Source of the DNA: an uncultured Lachnospiraceae bacterium
Lineage (GTDB): Bacteria > Bacillota > Clostridia > Lachnospirales > Lachnospiraceae
DNA: 64,000 nt
Assembly: GCA_900317755.1 (NCBI GenBank)
Contig: ONHZ01000025.1
Location: 1 to 64,000 of the forward strand
Direction of reading: 5' to 3'
Positions 50,713-63,190 of this stretch are shown here, piece after piece. Position 1 is the first letter of the stretch, and the number at the start of each line of letters is the position of its first letter. The notes beneath the pieces were generated by a model. It was given only the letters and a program-made list of their open reading frames with translations. It made no database searches and had not been told where the DNA came from. The position numbers were made by a program, and so were the translations under genes.

Positions 50713-50862
50713 AATTTGCAAGATATCAAACTGCCATAAGGCAGTTGGATATCTTGCTTTCAGGTACAGGCTTAAGCCTGTACCTGATGAGCTGCGAAGC
50801 AGCAATTTTATAGCGAGCGAACGCAGTTCGCGAGCCTAGAAAAAATTTTTTTGGAGGCAAAG
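50713..50862 (+). promoter_or_regulatory. highly structured ilvE leader with four consecutive hairpins
   Basis: Hairpin 1 (50718-50757) has a 10-bp and a 6-bp perfect stem. Hairpin 2 (50760-50787) is a perfect 28-base palindrome. Hairpin 3 (50791-50803) is GCTGC, loop GAA. Hairpin 4 (50817-50831) is GCGAAC, loop GCA. An A6T7 run and the TTGGAGG ribosome site follow. The T-box consensus GGGTGG-ACCGCG is absent. It may be an attenuator or an inserted repeat. The 286-base gap 50577-50862 also has a weak hairpin after aspS at 50636-50659. Confidence 0.6.
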
Positions 50863-51927
50863 ATGGATATTCGTTTTGAAAAAGCAGACAAGCTTAAGGA
50901 AAAGCCAGATCAGAACAATCTCGGCTTCGGAAAGTATTTTACAGACTACATGTTTGTAATGGACTGGGACCAGGGCGTTGGTTTCCATGATGCAAGAATC
51001 GTTCCTTATGGACCTATTCCGATTGAGCCTGGATGCGTGATTTTACATTATGCACAGGAGACTTTCGAAGGACTCAAGGCTTACAGAAGAGAAGATGGAA
51101 AGATTCAGCTTTTCCGTCCTGAGATGAATGCAAAGAGAATGCAGAATTCAAACAAGCGTCTCTGCATGCCTGAGGTTCCTGTTGAGGATTTCGTAGAGGC
51201 TGTCAAGGCACTTGTAAAGGTTGAAAAGGACTGGGTTCCTTCACTTCCAAATACATCACTTTACATCAGACCATTTATGTTCGCTACAGAAGAGGCTCTT
51301 GGTGTTCATCAGGCTATTTCATATAAGTTCATGATCATCACAAGCCCTGTTGGCACATATTATGCTGAAGGTCTTAATCCTGTAAAGATCATGATCGAGG
51401 ATGAGCTTGTTCGTGCCGTAGCCGGTGGTACAGGCTTCACAAAGTGCGGCGGAAATTACGCTGGTTCTATCGCAGGCCAGGTAAAGGCAGAGGCACAGGG
51501 TTATGATCAGGTTCTCTGGCTTGATGGCGCTACAAAGACATACGTAGAGGAAGTCGGCTCAATGAATATCATGTTCAAGATTGACGGCGAAATCTACACA
51601 GCACCGCTTGAAGGTACAGTTCTTCCAGGTGTTACAAGAGATTCTATGATTACCATCCTTAAGGACTGGGGCTACAAGGTAAATGAAACACATCTCAAGG
51701 CTACAGACCTTATGAAGGCCGGTCATGATGGCAAGCTTGAGGAAGTATTCGGTACAGGTACAGCTGCTGTTATTTCTCCTGTTGGAATGCTCAAGTTCAA
51801 GGACGATGAGATTACAATAAACAACAACCAGACAGGTGAGCTCACACAGAAGCTTTATGATACACTCACAGGAATCCAGTGGGGCAAGCTTCCTGACAAG
51901 TTCAGCTGGACACAGGTTGTCTGCTGA
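50863..51927 (+). CDS. ilvE: branched-chain amino acid aminotransferase
   Basis: Transfers the amino group between glutamate and the keto acids of valine, leucine and isoleucine. The 354-residue fold type IV PLP enzyme is of the long subgroup, with HYAQETFEGLKAYRREDG near 62-79, YIRPFMFATEEALGV near 134-148, the Schiff-base Lys194 in GGTGFTKCGGNYAGS, and EEVGSMNIMF near 218-227. I start at ATG 50863, with TTGGAGG at normal distance; the in-frame TTG at 50851 is the ribosome site itself. The structured leader upstream suggests regulation. Confidence 0.96.
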   Translation: MDIRFEKADKLKEKPDQNNLGFGKYFTDYMFVMDWDQGVGFHDARIVPYGPIPIEPGCVILHYAQETFEGLKAYRREDGKIQLFRPEMNAKRMQNSNKRLCMPEVPVEDFVEAVKALVKVEKDWVPSLPNTSLYIRPFMFATEEALGVHQAISYKFMIITSPVGTYYAEGLNPVKIMIEDELVRAVAGGTGFTKCGGNYAGSIAGQVKAEAQGYDQVLWLDGATKTYVEEVGSMNIMFKIDGEIYTAPLEGTVLPGVTRDSMITILKDWGYKVNETHLKATDLMKAGHDGKLEEVFGTGTAAVISPVGMLKFKDDEITINNNQTGELTQKLYDTLTGIQWGKLPDKFSWTQVVC

Positions 51928-51952: not shown

Positions 51953-51997
51953 GCGGTTTTAAATTTTACTAATTGTGAAATTTAAGGCCGCTTTTTT
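51953..51997 (+). terminator. rho-independent terminator after ilvE
   Basis: A 17-bp stem (51953-51969 with 51975-51991, three G-U pairs), five-base loop, then six T. Confidence 0.93.
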
Positions 51998-52018: not shown

Positions 52019-52047
52019 TTGACAAAGCATCGTTAAATAGATAAAGT
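52019..52047 (+). promoter_or_regulatory. promoter of the sugar-nucleotide cluster
   Basis: Exact TTGACA, 17 bases, TAAAGT, 30 bases before rfbF. No other strong promoter is seen before 63 kb. Confidence 0.7.
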
Positions 52048-52077
52048 AATACTTCTAGATGTTAATTAGGAGAATAC

Positions 52078-52851
52078 ATGAAAGTAGTTTTATTAGCAGG
52101 TGGCAAGGGTACAAGGATTTCGGAAGAATCTGTATACAGGCCAAAGCCTATGATTGAAATAGGCGGTATGCCAATTCTCTGGCATATCATGAAGGAATAT
52201 TCATATTATGGATTCAATGAATTTATTATTTGCGCTGGTTATAAGCAGCATATGATAAAGGAATGGTTCAGGGATTATTTTCTATTCCAGTCTGATGTGA
52301 CCTTTGATCTGACAGAGGAAAATAAAATTACAATACATGACCAGCATGCAGAGCCTTGGAAGGTCACTGTTGTTGACACTGGCTTAAATACGATGACAGG
52401 CGGCAGGATTAAGAGGGTTCAGAAGTATATTGGCGATGAGCCCTTTATGATGACATATGGTGACGGTGTCTGCGATGTTGATATAAAAAAGCTTCTTGAA
52501 TTTCATCAATCTCATGGGAAAATAGCTACGCTTACCGCAGTTCTGATAGATCAGTCCAAGGGTGTTCTTGATATAGGAGAGGGGAATTCTGTCCGTTCAT
52601 TCAGGGAGAAAAGCTCATCTGATGGTTCCCCAATAAATGCAGGCTACATGGTATTAAATCCAGAGATTTTTGATTATTTACAGGATGATAATACGATTTT
52701 TGAGAGAGAACCGCTTGAAAGGCTTGCAAATGAGGGGGAGCTTATGAGCTATATGCATAAGGGCTTCTGGCAGTGCATGGACTCAATCAGGGAGAAAAAT
52801 ATTCTTGAAAACATGATAGAGAATGGCACTGCGCCATGGATAAAGTGGTAA
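52078..52851 (+). CDS. rfbF: glucose-1-phosphate cytidylyltransferase
   Basis: Makes CDP-glucose from CTP and glucose 1-phosphate, the entry to CDP-dideoxysugars. The 257-residue protein has the nucleotide loop LLAGGKGTRISEES near residues 5-18, YRPKPMIEIGGMPILWHIM split near 20-38, FIICAGYKQHMIKEWF near 50-65, MTYGDGVCDVD near 124-134 with metal-binding Asp, and GFWQCMDSIREK near 234-245. TAGGAGA precedes the ATG. It is first in the cluster and its product is the substrate of RfbG. Confidence 0.96.
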   Translation: MKVVLLAGGKGTRISEESVYRPKPMIEIGGMPILWHIMKEYSYYGFNEFIICAGYKQHMIKEWFRDYFLFQSDVTFDLTEENKITIHDQHAEPWKVTVVDTGLNTMTGGRIKRVQKYIGDEPFMMTYGDGVCDVDIKKLLEFHQSHGKIATLTAVLIDQSKGVLDIGEGNSVRSFREKSSSDGSPINAGYMVLNPEIFDYLQDDNTIFEREPLERLANEGELMSYMHKGFWQCMDSIREKNILENMIENGTAPWIKW

Positions 52852-52922
52852 ATATATAGAAGAATATCGTTGAAGGCATAATGTGATATTGTGCTTAAAA
52901 ATATTGTAAAGTTAGGAGAAAA

Positions 52923-54272
52923 ATGGAAAACTGGGATTCAGAAGAAGAGGCAAGGGAGAAGATCAAAGGTCTGGTAGCAGAATACTACCATGATTTCAAG
53001 GAGCCTTCAGATAAAAAGCCTTTCAAGCCTGGTGATCGAATTGGCTACGGCGGACGAATATATGATGAAAAAGAAATGATGGCACTTACGGATGCCACAC
53101 TTGATTTCTGGCTCACAACAGGGCGTTTCTGTGATGAGTTTGAAAAAAATTTTGGCGAATGGATTGGAGCGAAGTTTGTTCATCTTGTAAATTCCGGTTC
53201 TTCAGCAAATCTTATTGCTTTCTCTGTGCTGACTGCACCAGAGCTTGGTGACAGGCAGATCAAGAAGGGAGACGAGGTCATTACCGTTGCCTGCGGTTTC
53301 CCTACTACAATAAATCCAATTATTCAGTATGGAGCAGTGCCTGTATTTGTAGATGTTACAATACCGCAGTACAATATCGATGTTGAGAAGCTTGAAGAAG
53401 CTTATTCTGATAAGACAAAGGCAGTTATGATTGCCCATACGCTTGGAAACCCTTTCAACATCAAGGCAGTAAAGGAGTTCTGTGACAGGCATAATCTCTG
53501 GCTTGTAGAGGACAACTGCGATGCGCTTGGCTCCAAATATACCATTGATGGAGAGACAAGGTTTACTGGTACATGGGGAGACATTGGAACGTCTTCCTTC
53601 TATCCGCCGCATCATATGACAATGGGAGAAGGTGGAGCAGTTTATACGAATAATCCTCTTCTTCACAGGCTCATTCTTTCATATCGTGACTGGGGACGTG
53701 ACTGCATCTGCCCTTCTGGGCATGATAATTTCTGCGGTCACAGGTTCGACGGTGACTGGTCTGAACTTCCACACGGATACGATCATAAATATGTATACAG
53801 CCACTTGGGCTACAATTTAAAGGTCACCGATATGCAGGCCGCTGTTGGCGTTGAGCAGCTGAAGAAGTTCCCCGGGTTCATTAAGATCCGTCAGCAGAAT
53901 TGGAAGTATTTGAAAGAGCAATTACATGACCTTTCTGATGTCCTGATTCTTCCAGAGGCAGCAGAGAACTCAGAGCCTTCATGGTTCGGTTTCCTCATTT
54001 CTGTAAAGCCTGAGTCTGGATTAGACAGAAATAAGGTGACTAGATATATAGAGGAGCACAATGTACAGACAAGGCTTCTTTTCAGCGGCAATATCATCCG
54101 CCATCCTGCATTTGACCAGATTCGTGGCACGGATGCATACAGGGTAGCTGGTGGCCTCAAGAATTCAGACTTTATCGTGAACAACACTTTCTGGATTGGC
54201 GTTTATCCAGGAATGACAAAAGATAAGCTTGACTATATGATTGAGATGGTGCATGAGGCTGTGAAACAGTAA
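52923..54272 (+). CDS. rfbH: CDP-4-keto-6-deoxyglucose 3-dehydrase (E1), PMP/Fe-S enzyme
   Basis: Removes the C3 hydroxyl of CDP-4-keto-6-deoxyglucose with PMP and a 2Fe-2S cluster. The 449-residue protein has an aminotransferase-like fold, but the usual Schiff-base Lys position holds His (FYPPHHMTMGEGG, His230-His231), the hallmark of E1 enzymes. Fe-S ligands are visible as Cys199 and the C-x-C-x7-C group at 261, 263 and 271. TAGGAG precedes ATG 52923. E1 needs electrons from a reductase (E3/RfbI), and none is encoded in the window. Confidence 0.95.
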   Translation: MENWDSEEEAREKIKGLVAEYYHDFKEPSDKKPFKPGDRIGYGGRIYDEKEMMALTDATLDFWLTTGRFCDEFEKNFGEWIGAKFVHLVNSGSSANLIAFSVLTAPELGDRQIKKGDEVITVACGFPTTINPIIQYGAVPVFVDVTIPQYNIDVEKLEEAYSDKTKAVMIAHTLGNPFNIKAVKEFCDRHNLWLVEDNCDALGSKYTIDGETRFTGTWGDIGTSSFYPPHHMTMGEGGAVYTNNPLLHRLILSYRDWGRDCICPSGHDNFCGHRFDGDWSELPHGYDHKYVYSHLGYNLKVTDMQAAVGVEQLKKFPGFIKIRQQNWKYLKEQLHDLSDVLILPEAAENSEPSWFGFLISVKPESGLDRNKVTRYIEEHNVQTRLLFSGNIIRHPAFDQIRGTDAYRVAGGLKNSDFIVNNTFWIGVYPGMTKDKLDYMIEMVHEAVKQ

Positions 54273-54327
54273 TAATTGTATTTACTATTACTATTGTTTT
54301 GTGTAAAAATCTGGGAGCTGAATTTTG

Positions 54328-55398
54328 ATGATAAATAAAGAGTTTTATCAGGGAAAACGAGTACTTGTTACAGGTCACTCTGGCTTCAAAGGTTCATGGA
54401 TGTGTGAACTTTTGAAGATGATGGGAGCCAGGGTCACTGGGTATGCACTTAACCTCCCGACAGATCCGTCACTTTTTGAGATTTGCAATATTGCAGAAGG
54501 AATGGTTTCTGTAGTTGGCGATATCAGAGACTTTGGGCATCTAAAGTCAGTTTTTGATGAAGTACAGCCTGAAATTGTCATTCATATGGCTGCCCAGCCA
54601 ATTGTACGTGAATCATACATAAGTCCAAGATATACATATGAGACGAATGTTATGGGAACTGTGAATGTTCTTGAATGTGTTCGTCTGACAAAGTCTGTAA
54701 AGTCTTTCGTCAATGTCACGACAGATAAGGTGTATAAAAATAAAGAATGGCTCTGGGGATACAGGGAGAATGAGGAACTTGATGGTTTTGATCCATATTC
54801 GAATTCAAAGTCCTGTTCTGAACTTGTCACACATTCTTATAAGAGTTCTTTTTTTAGCGAGAAAGATTCGCCAGCCATTTCTACAGCAAGGGCAGGAAAT
54901 GTAATAGGCGGTGGAGATTTTGCAAAGGACAGGATTATCCCAGATGCTGTTCGTGCGATGGAGAAAGGAGAGGACATCATAGTCAGGAATCCATATTCTA
55001 CCCGGCCATACCAATTTGTTCTCGAACCTGTGACAGCATATCTCATGATTGCAGAAAAGCAGTATCAGGACAAAAAGTATGCAGGGAATTATAATGTCGG
55101 TCCTGATGACACTGACTGCTGGACGACGGGAAATCTTATTGATTTGTTCTGTGATAAGTGGGCTGAGGAGACTGGAAGGCGGCCAAGTTGGATCAACAAG
55201 TCAGACGGTGGTCCTCATGAGGCAAATTTCCTTAAGTTAGATTGTTCCCTTCTTAAAAGCACATTCGGCTGGATGCCTAGATGGAATGTTGAGACTGCTA
55301 TGGAGAAAATTGTTGAATTCTCCAATGCCTATATTAAAAAGCAGGATGTTAAGCAAATAATGCAGAATGAGATTAGGGAATTCTGCAATATTGATTGA
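54328..55398 (+). CDS. rfbG: CDP-glucose 4,6-dehydratase
   Basis: Converts CDP-glucose to CDP-4-keto-6-deoxyglucose. The 356-residue extended SDR has the NAD loop VTGHSGFKGSW near residues 14-24, HMAAQPIVRESY near 85-96, the catalytic Thr-Asp-Lys NVTTDKVYKNKEW near 125-137 and Tyr-x-x-x-Lys in DPYSNSKSCSE near 150-160. I use ATG 54328 with GGGAG ten bases upstream; the preceding in-frame TTG adds only one residue. It works before RfbH although encoded after it. Confidence 0.96.
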   Translation: MINKEFYQGKRVLVTGHSGFKGSWMCELLKMMGARVTGYALNLPTDPSLFEICNIAEGMVSVVGDIRDFGHLKSVFDEVQPEIVIHMAAQPIVRESYISPRYTYETNVMGTVNVLECVRLTKSVKSFVNVTTDKVYKNKEWLWGYRENEELDGFDPYSNSKSCSELVTHSYKSSFFSEKDSPAISTARAGNVIGGGDFAKDRIIPDAVRAMEKGEDIIVRNPYSTRPYQFVLEPVTAYLMIAEKQYQDKKYAGNYNVGPDDTDCWTTGNLIDLFCDKWAEETGRRPSWINKSDGGPHEANFLKLDCSLLKSTFGWMPRWNVETAMEKIVEFSNAYIKKQDVKQIMQNEIREFCNID

Positions 55399-55433
55399 AT
55401 AAAATTTATCTTATTAAAGTAAGACAGCTTGTG

Positions 55434-55468
55434 ATTATCATTCTTATTAAATTTCAGAAAATGATAAT
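55434..55468 (+). other. AT-rich hairpin after rfbG
   Basis: A perfect 9-bp stem, ATTATCATT with AATGATAAT, with a 17-base loop. No T run follows directly. It may be a weak terminator or stability element within the cluster. Confidence 0.4.
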
Positions 55469-55501
55469 TATTTATACAATTTGTAATAATGGAGTTACAA
55501 A

Positions 55502-57160
55502 ATGAAAGATATTAAATTACTGGACTGTACCCTCAGGGATGGCGGTTATGTAAATGACTGGGAATTCGGTCACAACAATATTTCGAGTATATTTGAGCGC
55601 CTTGTTGATACAGATGTTGAGATGATAGAAGTTGGATTCCTGGATGAGAGGAGACCATTTGACATCAATCGAACTATTATGCCAGATGCAATAGACACAA
55701 ACAAGGTATTTGGTAGTATTGAAAAACGTCCAGAGATTGTTGATGCTATGATTGATTTTGGCACTTGTACATTGCCTCATATACAACCTGCATCAGAGAC
55801 ATTTATTGATTGTATAAGAGTAATTTTCAAGGAGCATTTGATGTATGATGCACTTGAGTTCTGTGGCGAGCTGAAGAAGCTTGGGTACCTTGCCACTGCA
55901 CAGCTTGTTTCAGTCACGACCTATACGGATGAAAAGCTAAAGGAACTTTGCGACCTCGCAAACAAGGTAAAGCCTTATGCTGTCAGCATGGTTGACACAT
56001 ATGGACTGCTGACTCCAGAAAAATTAATCCATATCTATTCTGTACTTGACAAGTATCTTGACCCGGAAATTTATATTGGCTTCCATGCGCACAACAATTT
56101 TCAGCTTGCCTATGCAAATGCAAGGGCTTTCGTGGATTTTGTTCCTGAAGATCCAGAAGAACTTGAAAATTTCAATAAGAGGGGAATCCTTGTAGATGCC
56201 ACTTTGTTTGGAATGGGAAAGAGCGCTGGAAACTGTCCACTTGAACTTCTTGCCATGCACTTAAATGAGCATCACGAAAAACATTATAAAATTAATCCTA
56301 TGCTTGAAGCCATTGATGAATCAATCATGGATTTCTATGCAAAGAATCCGTGGGGATATAAGACTTATTTCTACCTTTGCGCACTTAATAAGTGCCATCC
56401 GAACTACGTAAAGCAGTTCCAGAAGAAGGTAAACCTCAGCGTTTCTGATGTAAACAATATTTTAGGTGAGATTGAGCCTGAGCCGAAGAAGCTCCTCTAT
56501 GATGCAGAAATTGGTGAAAGGACCTATGACGATTACAGTAGTCAGTATCTTTTCGATGGTGATTCATACGAGAGACTTTCTAAGGATCTTAAGGGAAGAG
56601 ACATTCTTCTTATAGGTCCTGGAAAGAACATACAACTCCAGAATGACAAGGTTAGGAATTACATTGAAGAAAAGAAGCCGGCAATTATTTCTATTAATTA
56701 CATACCAGGCGAATTTAATGTAGATTATGTCTTCGTTACGAATTCCCACAGATATCTGACACTTACGGATTCTCTTCTTGAAATAAAGAATAGGGAAGTG
56801 AAGATCATAGCTACTACTAATGTTTCTTCAAAGAATAAGCCTTTTGATTTCGTAGTGATGCGTGAGCCACTCCTTGAAGCAAATGAGAAGATAAAGGACA
56901 ATTCTTTCCTTATGTTATTAAAGGTATTGAAGAACTGCGGCGTGACAGAAATTTCATGTGCAGGCTTTGATGGCTATTCAGACGTAGAGGACAATTACTT
57001 CAATCCTCGCATGGAGTATAGTTTCATTAAGCAGGAAGCTCTTCATTTAAACCAGCATATACGCCAGGCTCTTGTGACAGACTTCTCATCTATGAAGATA
57101 AATTTCATTACATATTCAAGATATCAGGAGACTGAGGATATCAATCTTGGGGCAATCTAA
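55502..57160 (+). CDS. HMGL/DRE-TIM aldolase fused to a DUF115-like domain
   Basis: A 552-residue two-domain protein. Residues 1-300 are a DRE-TIM metallolyase barrel of the 4-hydroxy-2-oxovalerate aldolase / HMG-CoA lyase type: LLDCTLRDGGYVNDW near 6-20 (metal-binding Asp, catalytic Arg), SMVDTYGLLTPE near 161-172, the metal His pair GFHAHNNFQLAY near 193-204 and ATLFGMGKSAGNCPLE. Residues about 370-500 look like a Rossmann-type domain (DILLIGPGKNIQ, EISCAGFDGYSD), resembling DUF115/MptE-like proteins by pattern. It may make or split a short keto acid for the TPP enzyme that follows 15 bases later. Substrate unknown. Confidence 0.75.
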   Translation: MKDIKLLDCTLRDGGYVNDWEFGHNNISSIFERLVDTDVEMIEVGFLDERRPFDINRTIMPDAIDTNKVFGSIEKRPEIVDAMIDFGTCTLPHIQPASETFIDCIRVIFKEHLMYDALEFCGELKKLGYLATAQLVSVTTYTDEKLKELCDLANKVKPYAVSMVDTYGLLTPEKLIHIYSVLDKYLDPEIYIGFHAHNNFQLAYANARAFVDFVPEDPEELENFNKRGILVDATLFGMGKSAGNCPLELLAMHLNEHHEKHYKINPMLEAIDESIMDFYAKNPWGYKTYFYLCALNKCHPNYVKQFQKKVNLSVSDVNNILGEIEPEPKKLLYDAEIGERTYDDYSSQYLFDGDSYERLSKDLKGRDILLIGPGKNIQLQNDKVRNYIEEKKPAIISINYIPGEFNVDYVFVTNSHRYLTLTDSLLEIKNREVKIIATTNVSSKNKPFDFVVMREPLLEANEKIKDNSFLMLLKVLKNCGVTEISCAGFDGYSDVEDNYFNPRMEYSFIKQEALHLNQHIRQALVTDFSSMKINFITYSRYQETEDINLGAI

Positions 57161-57175
57161 GGAAAAGAGTAAAAA

Positions 57176-58975
57176 ATGAACATCAAGGTTTCTGATTATA
57201 TAGCTGAATATTTTGCAAAGCAGGGCATTACGGACTGTTTCATGGTTACAGGCGGCGGTGCGATGCATCTCGATGATGCTATCGGTCACAACAAGGACAT
57301 TCATGTTACATTCAATCACAATGAGCAGGCTACATCAATTGCAGCTGAAGGCTATGCGAGAATGACAGGAAAAATTGCATTAGCATGCGTTACCAGCGGT
57401 CCTGGCGGAACAAATGCAATCACTGGCGTAATGGGTGGCTGGCTAGATTCCATCCCTATGTTCGTGCTTTCAGGACAGGTAAAGCGTGAGACTACAATCT
57501 GGTCATGCCAGGACTTGAACCTCCGTCAGCTCGGCGATCAGGAATTCAATATTATCGATTCTGTACAGAACATGACAAAGTATGCAGTCATGGTCACAAA
57601 TGAAAAAGAAATCGCATACCATCTCGAAAAGGCATATTATCTTGCCACGCACGGAAGAAAGGGACCTGTATGGCTTGATATTCCGCTAGATATTCAGGGC
57701 GCGCATATCGAGACTGATGAGCTCATTCATTTTGATCCAGAAAAGGAAGTATTCTGGGGAACGCCAGAAGTACTCGATTCTTCAATAGAGATTATTCTTG
57801 ACAAAATTAAATCTGCAAAGGCTCCGCTCGTGCTCGCTGGCACTGGCATAAGGCTTGCCGGAGCGGAGGACAAGTTCTTAAAGTTCGTGGAAAAATACCA
57901 GATTCCTGTCGTAACAGCATGGAACGCAAATGACACGATTGCTTACGACAATCCTCTTTTTGTGGGAATGCCTGGCACAGTCGGTACAAGGTCAGGTAAT
58001 TTCGCAATTCAGAATGCGGATCTTCTGATCAGCCTTGGCTGCCGACTGAATATTAGGATGATTGGCTATACACATTATGATTTTGCAAACAAGGCTTTCA
58101 AGGCGATTGTCGATATTGATCCAAGGGAGCTTATGAAGCCTACGATTCATGCAGACCTTCCTATTCATGCAGATCTTTCAGATTTCCTTGACAGGATGCT
58201 TGAGGCTGACTTTACGCCAGTTCCTGAGCATAAGAAGTGGGTTGAATTCAGCAGAAATTTGCTTAATAAATATCCTGCAGTTCTGCCATCCTATCATTCA
58301 GATGACAAGGATATCAATCCTTATGTTTTTGTTGAGAAGCTTTTCGAGCATCTTGATTCAGACGACAGGATCATCACCGGAAATGGCAGTGCCTGTGTTA
58401 TTACTTTTCAGGCTGCAAAGGTAAAGCAGGGACAAAGAATGTTTACGAATTCTGGCTGCGCTGCGATGGGCTATGGTCTTCCGGCTGCACTTGGTGTAGC
58501 TGTTTCTGACAACAGCAGAAGGACAATCTGCATTGATGGCGATGGCAGCGTAATGATGAATATCCAGGAGCTTGCAACGATTGCTTATAATAAGCTCAAT
58601 GTCAAGATTATCATTCTCAATAATAACGGTTATCTCTCAATCAGACAGACACAGACGAACCTTTTCAAGCCGCCATTCATTGGCATTGATCAGACAAGCG
58701 GTGTCGGTTTCCCTGATTTTGAAATCCTTGGAAAGGCCTTTGGCATTCCATATATGAGGCTTGAGAAGGAAAATAATGCAGACGAGATTCTGGAGAATTA
58801 TCTTTCTGCAGAAGGCCCGTGCATACTTGAAGCAGTCGTTGACTGGAAGCAGAATTTTGAGCCGAAGTCATCTTCAAAGGTGCTTCCTGATGGAAGGATT
58901 GTTTCACCGTCACTGAATGATATGAAGCCATTCCTCGATAGGGATGAATTCGCTGAGGCACAATACAAAGCCTGA
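57176..58975 (+). CDS. TPP-dependent acetolactate synthase-like enzyme (YerE-like)
   Basis: A 599-residue enzyme with the three-domain acetolactate synthase fold. The TPP-activating Glu50 is in FNHNEQATSIAAEGYAR, TSGPGGTNAITG lies near 73-84, and the TPP/Mg motif runs from GDGSVMMNIQEL to ILNNNGYLS. Because it is surrounded by CDP-dideoxysugar genes and not by ilvN/ilvC, a role like YerE is likelier than amino acid synthesis: YerE uses pyruvate to attach a two-carbon branch to CDP-4-keto-3,6-dideoxyglucose. That role is inference from context. Confidence 0.8.
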   Translation: MNIKVSDYIAEYFAKQGITDCFMVTGGGAMHLDDAIGHNKDIHVTFNHNEQATSIAAEGYARMTGKIALACVTSGPGGTNAITGVMGGWLDSIPMFVLSGQVKRETTIWSCQDLNLRQLGDQEFNIIDSVQNMTKYAVMVTNEKEIAYHLEKAYYLATHGRKGPVWLDIPLDIQGAHIETDELIHFDPEKEVFWGTPEVLDSSIEIILDKIKSAKAPLVLAGTGIRLAGAEDKFLKFVEKYQIPVVTAWNANDTIAYDNPLFVGMPGTVGTRSGNFAIQNADLLISLGCRLNIRMIGYTHYDFANKAFKAIVDIDPRELMKPTIHADLPIHADLSDFLDRMLEADFTPVPEHKKWVEFSRNLLNKYPAVLPSYHSDDKDINPYVFVEKLFEHLDSDDRIITGNGSACVITFQAAKVKQGQRMFTNSGCAAMGYGLPAALGVAVSDNSRRTICIDGDGSVMMNIQELATIAYNKLNVKIIILNNNGYLSIRQTQTNLFKPPFIGIDQTSGVGFPDFEILGKAFGIPYMRLEKENNADEILENYLSAEGPCILEAVVDWKQNFEPKSSSKVLPDGRIVSPSLNDMKPFLDRDEFAEAQYKA

Positions 58976-59066
58976 AATTATTCATATACTGCATCAGTTT
59001 ATGTACGTGGTGAGTACAGAATGCAGATGACAATTGAACCTGCATCAGATAATGAGAATGTAACAT

Positions 59067-59723
59067 ATGGCAGCAACGGAAATAAAAAATGTAATATTTG
59101 ACCTTGATGGCACGCTTCTTGATACGAGGCAGGGCGTTCTTGATGCTGTGGTTTATACGATCAAGGAATTAGGCTACGTAATGCCTTCTGATGAAGTCTT
59201 AAAGACATTCATCGGACCACCGATTCAGCTTTCCTTTATGAATACCTATGGCGTTTCAAAAGAAAAAGCGCAAAAAGCTGCAGATGTATTTCGGAATTTT
59301 TACAGCACGAAGACGCTTCTTGAGGCTGAACCTTATGATGGCATTTATGAGCTATGCGAGCAGCTGAAAAAAAGAGGCTATCAGCTCGCAGTGGCAACAT
59401 ATAAGAGAGAAGATTATGCACTGAATCTTCTGAATCATTATCATTTCGATGAATACTGCGATCCAATGCACGGTGCCGACAATATGAATGTCCTGAAGAA
59501 AGAGGACATCGTAGATATGTGCATAAATGAAATGGGAGGGGCTAAGGAAGACAGCGTGCTGATTGGAGATACGATGCATGACGGAACAGGTGCTGAGAAA
59601 GCGGGCGTTTCATTTATCGCTGTGACCTATGGCTTTGGATTCCGAGAAGGCGATGAGATCAAAGTGAATTCGCTATTAGGCGTTGCGAAGAAGCCTGTTG
59701 AAATTTTGGATATTTTGAACTAA
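59067..59723 (+). CDS. HAD-superfamily phosphatase
   Basis: A 218-residue phosphoglycolate-phosphatase-like HAD protein. Motif I is FDLDGTLLDT (residues about 10-19), motif II is in LAVATYKRE near 110-118, Lys of motif III is in NVLKKED near 144-150, and motif IV is IGDTMHDGTGAEKAG near 168-182. It is embedded in the sugar cluster 91 bases after the TPP enzyme gene. A plausible job is removing phosphate from a sugar phosphate or from the polyprenyl-phosphoribose product of the UbiA-like enzyme; neither is proven. Confidence 0.82.
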   Translation: MAATEIKNVIFDLDGTLLDTRQGVLDAVVYTIKELGYVMPSDEVLKTFIGPPIQLSFMNTYGVSKEKAQKAADVFRNFYSTKTLLEAEPYDGIYELCEQLKKRGYQLAVATYKREDYALNLLNHYHFDEYCDPMHGADNMNVLKKEDIVDMCINEMGGAKEDSVLIGDTMHDGTGAEKAGVSFIAVTYGFGFREGDEIKVNSLLGVAKKPVEILDILN

Positions 59724-59862
59724 CCAAAATATGTGCTTATGTTTTAGTGTTGTACCATCACATCATTCGTTTTGGGATGGCACGTACTTTATGATTTATT
59801 TACTAATCGATATTTATTCGAGATATATTATTTTATTACGAGATAGTTATTGAGGGATTGAT

Positions 59863-60768
59863 TTGAACATAGTTGTTACCGGTGCAACAAGCATGATAGG
59901 AGAGGCTGTCATTGAGGCTTCCTTAAAGAGAGGTGACAGGGTTCTTGCCATTGCAAGGAAGAATTCTCCGAAGCTCAGCCGTCTGCCTGAGTCAGAGAAT
60001 ATTAAGCTTTGTTTTTATGACCTTGCAGGACTAAAAGATATTGAGGCTCAGGAAGAAACATATGACGCATTCTTTCATTTTGCATGGGGAAACACAAATA
60101 GGAATTTCCGTGATGACCCGGTGTTGCAGGAAGAAAATGTGAAATACACACTCGATGCGGTTGAACTTGCGCACAGACTTGGCTGCAAAAGCTTTGTTTT
60201 TGCAGGCTCACAGGCTGAATATGGACTGAAGACTGAAAGGATTACACCTGAAACAAGACCAGATCCTGTCGTTGCCTATGGTATGGCAAAGCTATCTGCT
60301 GAGATGCTGAGCAGAAAACTCTGTGACAAATATGAAATGAAACACGTCGCACTTCGTATTTTCAGCGTTTATGGTTCATATGACAGTGACAGTACGCTTG
60401 TTTCTTATGCTGTAGATACATTCTTAAAGGGTGAAAAGGCATCATTTTCAGCTGCTACGAATATATGGAATTTTCTTTATTCCACTGATGCAGGCGAGAT
60501 GATTTACCGTCTTGGGACAAACGATGCAGAGAGCGGCATATACCTGATCGCTGGAAAGGAATCTACTTCATTAAAGAATTACATTAATACCATTATTTCA
60601 CTTTTTGAAAATGCGAAATCAGAGTTTGCTGAAGCAGATACTTCGAGACCAACTGTGAATCTCGATGTTGATATTTCAAAGACTATCGAAGCTTCAGGTT
60701 ATGAACCCGAAACTTCTTTTGAAGATGGCGTGAAGAAAGTAATTGAATACAGGAAGACATTAAAATAA
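59863..60768 (+). CDS. NAD-dependent epimerase/reductase (extended SDR)
   Basis: A 301-residue SDR with the NAD loop VTGATSMIGEA near residues 5-15, FHFAWGNTNRNF near 71-82, FAGSQAEYG near 113-121 (catalytic Ser) and the Tyr-x-x-x-Lys motif VAYGMAKLSAEM near 142-153. The start is TTG 59863, with GAGGG six bases before it. In the yersiniose route, YerF, an SDR, reduces the ketone of the newly attached branch; this protein is in the right place for such a step. It could also be a plain sugar epimerase. Confidence 0.82.
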   Translation: MNIVVTGATSMIGEAVIEASLKRGDRVLAIARKNSPKLSRLPESENIKLCFYDLAGLKDIEAQEETYDAFFHFAWGNTNRNFRDDPVLQEENVKYTLDAVELAHRLGCKSFVFAGSQAEYGLKTERITPETRPDPVVAYGMAKLSAEMLSRKLCDKYEMKHVALRIFSVYGSYDSDSTLVSYAVDTFLKGEKASFSAATNIWNFLYSTDAGEMIYRLGTNDAESGIYLIAGKESTSLKNYINTIISLFENAKSEFAEADTSRPTVNLDVDISKTIEASGYEPETSFEDGVKKVIEYRKTLK

Positions 60769-60830
60769 TTATTTGAATTTGATACGCTGTTATTGGAAAA
60801 TATTATCAAGCAAGTATAGAGAATAAAAAA

Positions 60831-61805
60831 ATGGAAGAAGAAAAGAAGAAAATCAGCATAATGATTCCCTGCTTTAATGAAGAGGAGAATGTCGTAGCAA
60901 TGAGCAATGCGGTTGTCGACATTGTTACAAAAGAATTGCCTCAGTATGATTATGAACTATTATTCATTGACAATGATTCAACTGACAATACGAGACCTTT
61001 GATTCGTGAAATCTGCAAGAAGAATCCAAAAGTAAAGGCTATTTTCAATGCTAAGAATTTTGGACAGTTTAATTCACCATATCATGCTATGTGCCAGACT
61101 ACAGGTGAATGCACTATTACTATGTGTTGTGATTTTCAGGATCCCGTGGAAATGATACCAGTCTTCGTGCATGAATGGGAAAAAGGTGCGAAAATAGTTT
61201 GTGGTATAAAGGCAACAAGCAAGGAAAATAAATTTATGCGTTTCCTTCGTACCTGCTACTACAAGCTCATAAAGAAGATGTCAAGTGTTGAGCAGATTGA
61301 GCATTTTACAGGCTTTGGTCTTTACGATAAATCCTTTATTGAAGTCTTGAAGAATTTAAATGATCCTACTCCTTTTCTTCGTGGAATTGTTGCAGAGCTT
61401 GGCTTTAAGAGAAAGGATGTTGTTTATGAGCAGCAGAAGAGACGTGCGGGAAAGACGCACAACAATTTCTTTACTCTTTACGATGCAGCGATGCTGAGCT
61501 TTACATCCTATACGAAGGCTGGTCTTCGTGCTGCAACAATAATAGGCTTTATTGCATCGCTTGCCAGCTTTATTATTGGAATAGTTTATTTAATATTAAA
61601 ACTTATTTATTGGGATAGATTTCCAGCTGGAATCGCCCCGCTTATTATTGTAGTATGTTTTTTGGGCTCACTTCAGTTATTTTTTATTGGTTTTCTTGGA
61701 GAATATATTATGGCAATAAACCAGAGGGTCATGCACAGGCCTCTGGTTATTGAGGAAGAGCGCATCAATTTTGATGATAACACGCCAAAGAATACAGAAA
61801 AATAG
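60831..61805 (+). CDS. membrane-bound GT2 glycosyltransferase (polyprenyl-phosphate sugar type)
   Basis: A 324-residue family 2 glycosyltransferase. The catalytic N-terminal part has ISIMIPCFNEEENV near residues 8-21, FIDNDSTDNT near 45-54 and the DxD-like CCDFQDPVE near 99-107. Two membrane spans follow at about 237-258 and 272-296, as in GtrB/DPM1/ArnC-type enzymes that move a sugar from a nucleotide to polyprenyl phosphate. It is eight bases upstream of the UbiA-like gene. The sugar is probably the product of this cluster, by inference. Confidence 0.9.
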   Translation: MEEEKKKISIMIPCFNEEENVVAMSNAVVDIVTKELPQYDYELLFIDNDSTDNTRPLIREICKKNPKVKAIFNAKNFGQFNSPYHAMCQTTGECTITMCCDFQDPVEMIPVFVHEWEKGAKIVCGIKATSKENKFMRFLRTCYYKLIKKMSSVEQIEHFTGFGLYDKSFIEVLKNLNDPTPFLRGIVAELGFKRKDVVYEQQKRRAGKTHNNFFTLYDAAMLSFTSYTKAGLRAATIIGFIASLASFIIGIVYLILKLIYWDRFPAGIAPLIIVVCFLGSLQLFFIGFLGEYIMAINQRVMHRPLVIEEERINFDDNTPKNTEK

Positions 61806-61813
61806 GAATTGTT

Positions 61814-62677
61814 TTGAAAAATTATTTTCGTTTACTTCGACCCAAACATTGTATCAAAAATTTGATAATATTCTTTCCACTTATTTTTGGAAGGGAATTA
61901 TTTAATATGCATTTATTCATGAATGCTGTTATTGGCTTTTTTGCTTTTTGCTTTCTTGCTGGAAGTGTCTACATTATTAACGATATTAAAGATGTTGAAA
62001 AGGACAGGAAGCACCCTACAAAGAAAAACAGGCCTATTGCATCTGGGGCAGTTACAGTTTCAAGTGCAAAGGCAGAAGTGATAATTGCGTTGATTCTTGC
62101 TATTTCCTGTGAGGCTGCACTCATAATAAATGGCTCATCATATTATTCTGCTTTATGTCTATTTGTATATTTTGTGTTAAACATTCTCTATAGTAATGGG
62201 TGGAAGAATATTCCGATATTGGATATTGTAATACTTGTTTCTGGATTTATTCTTAGACTTATTTTTGGAGCAACTATTACTGGAATTGCGCTTAGCGGTT
62301 GGATGTATTTAACAGTTCTTTCTGTATCTTTTTATTTGGGGCTTGGAAAGAGAAGAAATGAGATAATGATAAATGAAAAAAATAGCACCAGAGGAGTTCT
62401 AAAACATTATAATTATTCATTTCTTGATAAGAATATGTACCTTTGTCTTGCACTGTCAATAGTTTTTTATTCAATGTGGGCAAATGATACAAATAATAAA
62501 GTTATTTTATTTGGTTCAGTTCCGCTCATTATAGTAATGGCATTATGTTACAGCCTTGATATTGAAGGTGATTCTGACGGTGATCCTGTAGAAGTCATTT
62601 TTAGAGATAAACGATTAATTGTTCTTGCCATAATATTTGCAATTTTAATAATTTTTTCTATTTATGAGCACTTGTGA
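61814..62677 (+). CDS. UbiA-family prenyltransferase (polyprenyl-phosphate phosphoribosyltransferase-like)
   Basis: A 287-residue integral membrane protein with about eight spans. The first Asp-rich motif is INDIKDVEKDRKHPTKKNRP (residues about 55-74), and the N-terminal LLRPKHCIKNLIIFFPL is typical of the DPPR-synthase branch that joins PRPP and polyprenyl phosphate on the way to furanose sugars such as arabinose. YSLDIEGDSDGDPVEVIF near the end is also characteristic of that branch. The start is TTG 61814 with AGGAA five bases upstream. No DprE1-like oxidase is in the window. Confidence 0.85.
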   Translation: MKNYFRLLRPKHCIKNLIIFFPLIFGRELFNMHLFMNAVIGFFAFCFLAGSVYIINDIKDVEKDRKHPTKKNRPIASGAVTVSSAKAEVIIALILAISCEAALIINGSSYYSALCLFVYFVLNILYSNGWKNIPILDIVILVSGFILRLIFGATITGIALSGWMYLTVLSVSFYLGLGKRRNEIMINEKNSTRGVLKHYNYSFLDKNMYLCLALSIVFYSMWANDTNNKVILFGSVPLIIVMALCYSLDIEGDSDGDPVEVIFRDKRLIVLAIIFAILIIFSIYEHL

Positions 62678-62684
62678 AGATATT

Positions 62685-63190
62685 ATGAGAAATATAGCTA
62701 AAAAACGTAATCAGATATTTATAGGGATAATGTTTGTATCACTTTTTCTTTGGATTGCGTGCATATTATTACAAGGTACCGATAGCCGATTCTATAATGT
62801 CTTTTTTGGAAGGACGGGCAATTTTTTAGCAGATTGCCTTAATACAATTGGTTTTACTAAAGACAAAAATCCCTATTTTGATACTTCAATAGAGCCTTGT
62901 GAACACTCATATCCTCCATTGGCTTATCTTATTTTTTATGCTTTTCATAATATAGTTATACAATATATTTTATTATTGCAACTTTGGTGTTTTTAATGAC
63001 AGCTGAATACAATATGACAAATTTTATATTGATGATGGTTCAATGCTTTTTATATTCGATTTTCTTTTATGGCTTTGCAGGTAAATTTTATAATATTATT
63101 ATTCCGATATTGACCGCATATTTTGTAGTAGTTAGTATAACAAATATATACAAAGGCATAAAAAAACAACCCTTGGGGAGGGTTGTTTAA
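62685..63190 (+). pseudogene. broken multi-span membrane protein (GT-C/DUF2029-like remnant)
   Basis: The first frame, from ATG 62685, gives 103 residues with one membrane span and then FDTSIEPCEHSYPPLAYLIFY, which resembles the start of long DUF2029/GT87-type membrane glycosyltransferases. It stops at 62996. The membrane-protein pattern continues in another frame (from about 62951 to 63190: FIIATLVFLMTAEYN ... VVVSITNIYKGI). Intact relatives have about 400-500 residues, so most of the middle is missing and the ends are out of frame. Likely a dead gene from deletion plus frameshift. Confidence 0.65.
63164..63188. terminator. hairpin at the end of the sugar cluster
   Basis: AAACAACCCT (63164-63173) pairs perfectly with AGGGTTGTTT (63179-63188), loop TGGGG. 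Runs of A before and T at the end make it a better terminator on the minus strand, possibly bidirectional. Confidence 0.6.

Follow-up and report, generated by a model that had tools for sequence, protein, structure and literature searches.

Which sugar is made by a gut-type clostridial bacterium that carries, in a single run of genes, the enzymes of 3,6-dideoxyhexose synthesis, an aldolase and a thiamine diphosphate (ThDP) enzyme? The question is raised by the window analysed here, a stretch of 64,000 nucleotides (positions 1 to 64,000 of the forward strand of contig ONHZ01000025.1, assembly GCA_900317755.1) from an uncultured Lachnospiraceae bacterium with a genome of 2.15 Mb in 72 contigs. 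Nine genes follow each other on one strand at 52078-62677: rfbF, rfbH, rfbG, an aldolase fusion, a ThDP enzyme, a HAD phosphatase, a short-chain dehydrogenase/reductase (SDR), a family 2 glycosyltransferase (GT2) and a UbiA-type protein. We propose, with a probability of about 0.65, that this block makes a cytidine diphosphate (CDP) sugar that carries a long, hydroxylated side branch on its C4, through a relay of aldolase, HAD and ThDP enzyme.

In the proposed pathway, RfbF, RfbG and RfbH would supply the acceptor, CDP-4-keto-3,6-dideoxyglucose. Meanwhile, the aldolase would join pyruvate to an aldehyde that is likely phosphorylated, and the HAD would strip the phosphate from the aldol product, leaving a 2-oxo-3-deoxy acid. 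The ThDP enzyme would decarboxylate this acid and transfer what is left, an acyl unit, to the ketone at C4 of the acceptor. The ketone in the branch would be reduced by the SDR. The GT2 would load the sugar onto polyprenyl phosphate for use outside the membrane.

Composition and conservation of the gene block

The run from rfbF to the SDR spans 52078-60768, with the sugar genes in the order rfbF-rfbH-rfbG; all genes of the block lie on the + strand. RfbF, RfbG and RfbH belong to the established route of 3,6-dideoxyhexose synthesis. The genes for the acceptor all passed curated equivalog cut-offs: rfbF (52078..52851; glucose-1-phosphate cytidylyltransferase) with 371.7 bits to TIGR02623 (cut-off 300.25), rfbH (52923..54272; CDP-4-keto-6-deoxyglucose 3-dehydrase, or E1) with 707.5 bits to NF011936 (cut-off 423) and a best PDB match to 3bcx, and rfbG (54325..55398; CDP-glucose 4,6-dehydratase) with 436.1 bits to TIGR02622 (cut-off 278.45). 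RfbH carries FYPPHHMTMGEGG (His230, His231) and Cys199, 261, 263 and 271, aligning with the His and Cys of the solved E1; we take the cysteines to be Fe-S ligands and the His to stand in for the pyridoxal phosphate Lys. The block has no recognisable gene for an E3 reductase, the rest of the genome not having been searched for one. A sequence-only reading of this DNA had placed rfbF, rfbG and rfbH at the locus and had pointed to the E1 histidine and Fe-S cysteines, and the cut-offs and the alignment agree with it. It had also described an aldolase fusion ahead of a TPP (ThDP) enzyme and then an SDR, which are indeed found there with their HMGL-like domain, TPP domains and SDR motifs. The genes that it named stand, but it had overlooked two conserved ones, the HAD (59067-59723) and the GT2 (60831-61805).

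The conservation of the block was assessed in several sets of loci. An aldolase scan of named genomes gave 19 loci, 10 of them from Lachnospiraceae. A survey of the family covered 280 genomes, mostly one per genus and including the window's own, in which the aldolase was matched in 73 genomes (E 1e-30), rfbH in 91 (E 1e-100) and a YerE-like enzyme in 84 (E 1e-90). We took 40 stretches, 38 chosen for the aldolase and two for rfbH. Further loci comprised 20 with rfbH and no aldolase, 20 that were mostly ThDP-anchored and nine from a survey of the phylum; with two duplicates removed, this makes 107 loci including the window and the 19, or 127 with a later set of 20 ThDP-anchored loci (L155-L174). 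Loci L015 and L060 (genome G011) are the same contig. The p-values given below take no account of shared ancestry among the genomes.

Open reading frames (ORFs) were clustered in 60 loci (the window, the 19 and the 40, with two duplicates among them, two loci chosen for rfbH and the rest for the aldolase). The eight largest families were the aldolase, rfbH, the ThDP enzyme, the SDR, rfbF, the GT2, rfbG and the HAD. The block is far from a chance assembly, and the rfbFHG-aldolase-TPP-SDR arrangement singled out by the sequence-only reading recurs in other genomes, its genes being among these eight families. Four kinds of loci were found in the family: rfbFGH without a ThDP enzyme; rfbFGH with ThDP enzyme, SDR and GT2, a yersiniose-like content; ThDP enzyme and SDR, mostly with the GT2, and rfbH elsewhere; and, as in the window, ThDP enzyme and aldolase, often with the HAD. 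The pair of aldolase (at least 45% identity) and ThDP enzyme occurs in at least 20 of the 280 family genomes, the window's included. The one other genome of the window's genus in the survey, G083 (88% complete), had no aldolase, rfbH or ThDP match at the survey thresholds.

The ThDP enzyme and its probable acceptor

The ThDP enzyme (57176..58975) holds all three TPP domains, the ThDP-activating Glu50 and a GDG motif at 455. Its best PDB match is JanthE (8rph, 388 bits), ahead of the best acetolactate synthase (242.7 bits), and it falls under the acetolactate synthase cut-off (TIGR00118, 354.2 bits against 538.35). JanthE is classed as YerE-like in PMC12247030 and PMC12188165. In our trees, the acetohydroxyacid synthase rows were placed apart from the window's ThDP clade, which has 24 rows and a support of 100/99. 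These results support a YerE-like enzyme whose gene keeps company with CDP-sugar genes rather than ilv genes, in line with the YerE type assigned by the sequence-only reading: the protein is nearer to JanthE than to acetolactate synthases, and rfbFGH adjoin it. The window genome has one YerE-like gene, while two other ThDP relatives (33% and 28%), with 681.8 and 724.0 bits, exceed the 538.35 required of an acetolactate synthase, so that the enzyme of the block is not needed for valine synthesis. One of these true acetolactate synthases adjoins ilvD and leuB. Relatives of the block were not found mainly with ilv genes and away from CDP-sugar genes, as ilvE lies beside the block only in the window (1/107 loci).

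The link to CDP sugars extends across the family. The rfbH gene was found in 77 of the 84 genomes with a YerE-like match and in 14 of the 196 others (p 1.6e-45), as well as in 19 of the 20 genomes in which an aldolase of at least 45% identity lies beside the ThDP gene. The exception, G138 (locus L067), has no rfbH at E 1e-100. It carries the genes for the aldolase, the HAD and the ThDP enzyme, and its rfbF and rfbG adjoin the aldolase; this gene set would suit CDP-4-keto-6-deoxyglucose as acceptor, and branching may there take place on a 3-hydroxy keto sugar. Within the stretches themselves, rfbF, rfbG or rfbH was present in 32 of 42 loci with aldolase and ThDP enzyme. Because the YerE-like match and rfbH go together across the family genomes, the acceptor of the ThDP enzyme is most likely a CDP sugar. 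Separately, the 20 loci L155-L174 are ThDP-SDR loci, 18 with the GT2, that lie apart from rfbFGH in genomes that all have rfbH elsewhere (20/20); their ThDP frames, of about 630-720 amino acids, are longer than that of the window.

The two genes that follow the HAD accompany the ThDP enzyme as well. The SDR (59863..60768; epimerase-type, PF01370, with GxxxxxG and YxxxK motifs) has a counterpart near the TPP gene in 28/40 loci with the aldolase, 8/11 without it and 20/20 further loci without it. The GT2 (60831..61805) is of the ArnC/PgfS type, its best NCBIfam scores (PgfS, 169 bits; ArnC-type, 109) both being far under the cut-off. At 55% identity or more it was present in 33/54 loci with rfbH and the TPP gene, compared with 0/12 with rfbH and no TPP gene (one at 53%), and it accompanies the ThDP gene in 18/20 loci with no rfbFGH nearby. 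Since the GT2 tracks the ThDP enzyme rather than rfbH, its role is probably to handle the branched sugar.

The aldolase as a probable source of the donor

The aldolase fusion (55502..57160) consists of a DRE-TIM pyruvate-aldolase-like, HMGL-like domain (PF00682, residues 1-330 approximately) and a C-terminal part (about 336-552) with no Pfam match, which has a Maf/GT42 (sialyltransferase)-like fold in the structure model. The predicted structure (pLDDT 92.7) had 3dxi as its best Foldseek match, followed by 4-hydroxy-2-oxovalerate aldolases. With 3dxi and these aldolases (DmpG, BphI, AmnG type) the protein shares the TIM barrel, an R-D pair and HxH metal ligands: R12, D13, H195 and H197 are invariant in 53 aligned sequences, and we take them to be catalytic. 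It differs from the 4-hydroxy-2-oxovalerate aldolases in its extra C-terminal domain, in Tyr16 and in scoring far under the family cut-offs (TIGR03217, 67.6 bits against 286).

Gene order ties the aldolase to the ThDP enzyme. The aldolase gene of the window ends 15 bases ahead of the ThDP gene, and the genome has a single copy of each. The aldolase lies within 5 kb of a ThDP gene in 42 of the 107 loci, on the same strand in 41, and beside it in none of the 20 further ThDP-anchored loci (thus 42/127 overall). A ThDP match of at least 56% was found in 18 family genomes, of which 16 have an adjoining aldolase and the other two are cut by contig ends. Likewise, leaving aside rows truncated by contig ends, an aldolase-type gene stands beside every treed row of the window's ThDP clade. 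The HAD phosphatase (59067..59723; PF13419, 114.2 bits, with DxD and GDxxxD motifs) follows the same pattern, being near the ThDP gene in 28/45 loci with an aldolase of either type, as opposed to 2/53 without one (p 1.5e-10). Of these two loci, L118 is cut by a contig end and L148 has a weak match; the HAD model also overlooked the different HAD of L145.

A second aldolase-type protein occurs in other families of the phylum. Loci L143 and L144, whose ThDP enzymes fall inside the window's clade, lack the window-type aldolase and have instead a distant HpcH/HpaI-superfamily protein, together with a HAD; a protein of the same kind lies beside a more distant ThDP enzyme in L145. If this slot did not serve aldol chemistry, its occupation by two aldolase-type families would have no easy explanation.

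Aldolases with no ThDP neighbour have a different partner. A Kdo/Pse-type (CMP-ketoacid) cytidylyltransferase adjoins the aldolase in 13 of 16 such loci, two of the 16 being cut by contig ends, and in only 1/40 loci with a ThDP neighbour (cytidylyltransferase families being named from one representative per type); L147 adds one more aldolase of this kind beside such a gene. A 2-oxo-3-deoxy acid as predicted product of the aldolase is fitting for both neighbourhoods. Aldolases with this cytidylyltransferase and no ThDP neighbour were observed in L065, L078, L081-L085, L087-L089 and L093-L095, and are possibly an unstudied source of cytidine monophosphate (CMP)-ulosonic acids. Another variant is formed by loci with an AroB-like gene beside aldolase and ThDP gene (called by TIGR04425 for L019 and by similarity for the others): L011, L027, L019 and L137, without HAD, and L146, which has a HAD as well as a kinase of the FGGY type. 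In the tree, L011, L019, L137 and L146 are united in one clade (100/100) by their ThDP enzymes, and a carbocyclic branched sugar is conceivable there.

Collectively, because of the adjacency of the two genes, the co-occurrence of the HAD, the replacement of the aldolase by another aldolase-type protein and the fork between cytidylyltransferase and ThDP neighbours, it is most likely that the aldolase supplies the donor of the ThDP enzyme. The donor other than pyruvate suggested by the sequence-only reading is also what the linked aldolase points to in our comparison.

Weighing of the explanations

A relay free of phosphate, in which the aldolase condenses pyruvate with acetaldehyde, or some other aldehyde, in its free form to give 4-hydroxy-2-oxovalerate and hence erwiniose, with the HAD as an incidental housekeeping gene, would agree with the solved folds that come nearest after 3dxi and with the acceptance of 4-hydroxy-2-oxopentanoate by ErwE (PMC12247030). 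It would also account for the 16 of 42 aldolase-ThDP loci with no HAD. We consider it unlikely, as the HAD tracks the aldolase (28/45 vs 2/53) and also accompanies the HpcH/HpaI-type protein, and as four of the HAD-less loci (L011, L027, L019, L137) hold an AroB-like gene, from a phosphate-eliminating family. Ordinary yersiniose is the product to be expected if pyruvate is the donor of the ThDP enzyme, for a two-carbon branch, while aldolase and HAD serve another sugar. Aldolase-less rfbFGH-ThDP-SDR blocks, mostly with the same GT2, do occur in the family (L098, L107, L113, L114, L116, L122, L124 and others), as do ThDP-SDR-GT2 groups apart from rfbFGH; but the aldolase-type gene beside every uncut treed row of the window's ThDP clade, the 15 bases between the two genes and the single copy of each in the genome make this explanation improbable.

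Another idea is that the product of aldolase and HAD is a free ulosonic acid, to be activated in the form of a CMP-sugar, the ThDP enzyme being unrelated. The cytidylyltransferases beside ThDP-less aldolases (13/16), the Maf/sialyltransferase-like fold of the C-terminal domain and a PseF-like gene on another contig of the window genome (87.3 bits, under the cut-off of 205.7) speak for it. Such a cytidylyltransferase is, however, absent from the window and adjoins the aldolase in 1/40 ThDP loci, while L143 and L144 keep the ThDP gene although the aldolase is swapped, and we regard the idea as very improbable. The PseF-like cytidylyltransferase (G000:C50:44001, locus L152) suggests a separate nonulosonic acid pathway. 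Least credible by far is a set of branched-chain amino-acid genes, with an acetolactate synthase and an isopropylmalate/citramalate-type synthase beside ilvE. The Pfam names and ilvE directly upstream (50851-51927) would suit it, but the ThDP enzyme scores under the acetolactate synthase cut-off in a genome with two true ones elsewhere, and ilvE has this position in a single locus. A terminator-like stem (51953-51991) and promoter-like hexamers ahead of rfbF (52019..52047, + strand, 10/12 consensus match) separate ilvE from rfbF, both predicted from consensus matches alone.

Several points weigh against the proposed aldolase-HAD-ThDP relay itself. The pathway is a prediction from gene content and sequence comparison, and the length of the branch is not fixed by the evidence. 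Rfb genes are missing from the stretch in 10 of the 42 aldolase-ThDP loci, although three of these are contigs of less than 9 kb and, for six of the other seven, the survey genome holds rfbH at another place. In the trees, aldolase-positive and aldolase-negative loci are intermingled in the sister ThDP clade; therefore, the ThDP sequence alone cannot fix the donor. In the alignment, Tyr16 of the aldolase takes the position of a His of the 4-hydroxy-2-oxovalerate aldolases, which we presume to have a role in those enzymes. The HAD model was seeded mostly from aldolase-positive loci and favours that side, a bias that could not be removed. By this model 16 of the 42 loci have no HAD, and in four of them the AroB-like gene is found in its stead; a phosphate step may therefore not apply to all loci. 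The HpcH/HpaI assignment holds at superfamily level only (28.9-34.5 bits, cut-off 25); the single sequences of L143 and L144 had no PDB match, and the profile matches were weak (YfaU, a 2-keto-3-deoxy sugar aldolase, E 0.015; 4-hydroxy-2-oxoheptanedioate aldolase, E 0.028).

Relation to known systems

The block shares with yersiniose synthesis, in which YerF is presumably the SDR, an rfbFGH-type acceptor, a ThDP enzyme and an SDR. It differs in its aldolase and HAD, neither of which, to our knowledge, is known in yersiniose synthesis. According to PMC12247030, YerE prefers pyruvate and transfers a C3 chain at most. The same review describes that ErwE, from the erwiniose pathway of Pectobacterium atrosepticum, accepts 4-hydroxy-2-oxo acids, but not pyruvate, as donors for CDP-4-keto-3,6-dideoxyglucose, and that MMAR_2332, from the caryophyllose pathway of Mycobacterium marinum, has a similar preference for hydroxy-keto acids. 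The window block resembles the ErwE system in its predicted acceptor, its YerE-like ThDP enzyme and its proposed 4-hydroxy-2-oxo acid donor, and differs in its Gram-positive hosts and in the conserved aldolase and HAD for the donor.

Caryophyllose, a 3,6-dideoxy-4-C-(1,3,4,5-tetrahydroxyhexyl)-hexose according to PMC5706390, is likewise a 4-C-branched 3,6-dideoxyhexose, though it belongs to a glycolipid of another phylum. An aldol-derived donor would be expected to leave a CH2 adjoining what had been the carbonyl carbon, and the caryophyllose branch has one; its 2'-deoxy, 3'-hydroxy pattern is what a decarboxylated aldol-derived 2-oxo acid would leave. JanthE (8rph; PMC12188165) is the nearest solved sequence, with Y297 and K567 corresponding to Y298 and K564 of the window enzyme, but it has a CDG motif in place of GDG and V121 in place of D121.

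The pathway had been taken as undescribed by the sequence-only reading. This cannot be upheld, as the use of hydroxy-alpha-keto acids by YerE-like enzymes to make long-branched sugars has already been published for ErwE and MMAR_2332 (PMC12247030). What is new here is the Gram-positive hosts and the candidate donor supply; neither this setting nor the aldolase/HAD pair was found in a literature search that did not reach the primary papers.

Downstream end of the block

We are unsure whether the UbiA-type protein (61814..62677), nearest to decaprenyl-phosphate phosphoribosyltransferase (NF008978, 206.2 bits, cut-off 207), belongs to the block: its gene is not conserved with it, with a single 26% match (in L075) among the 107 loci. 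It is followed by a 110-amino-acid ORF with no Pfam match (62664-62996) and a short overlapping frame (62951-63190). Together (62664-63190) they sit about where L021 has a GT87 gene after the GT2, a family also present in L020, L022 and L023, and they look like a truncated remnant.

Implications

A broader idea, to which we give somewhat less than even odds, is that gut clostridia use a three-enzyme relay of pyruvate aldolase, phosphatase and ThDP ligase to attach an entire deoxy-sugar acid, made de novo, to C4 of another sugar, giving new branched sugars of ten to twelve carbons. The aldolase slot would be interchangeable between the HMGL type and the HpcH/HpaI type, an AroB-like cyclase may replace the phosphatase and lead to carbocyclic branches, and the aldolase family would be an overlooked source of 2-oxo-3-deoxy acids for CMP-activation or ThDP branching.

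The predicted product of the window block is a sugar for the cell surface whose carbon side branch is unusually long, the block occurs in dozens of related genomes and purified enzymes would allow a direct test of the prediction. If it holds, two cloneable genes would be candidates for the opening part of the synthesis of long-branched sugars, the origin of the hydroxy-keto acid, and the relay would offer a modular source of chiral tertiary alcohols. Long-branched sugars would then extend from lipopolysaccharides and mycobacterial glycolipids to gut-type Firmicutes.

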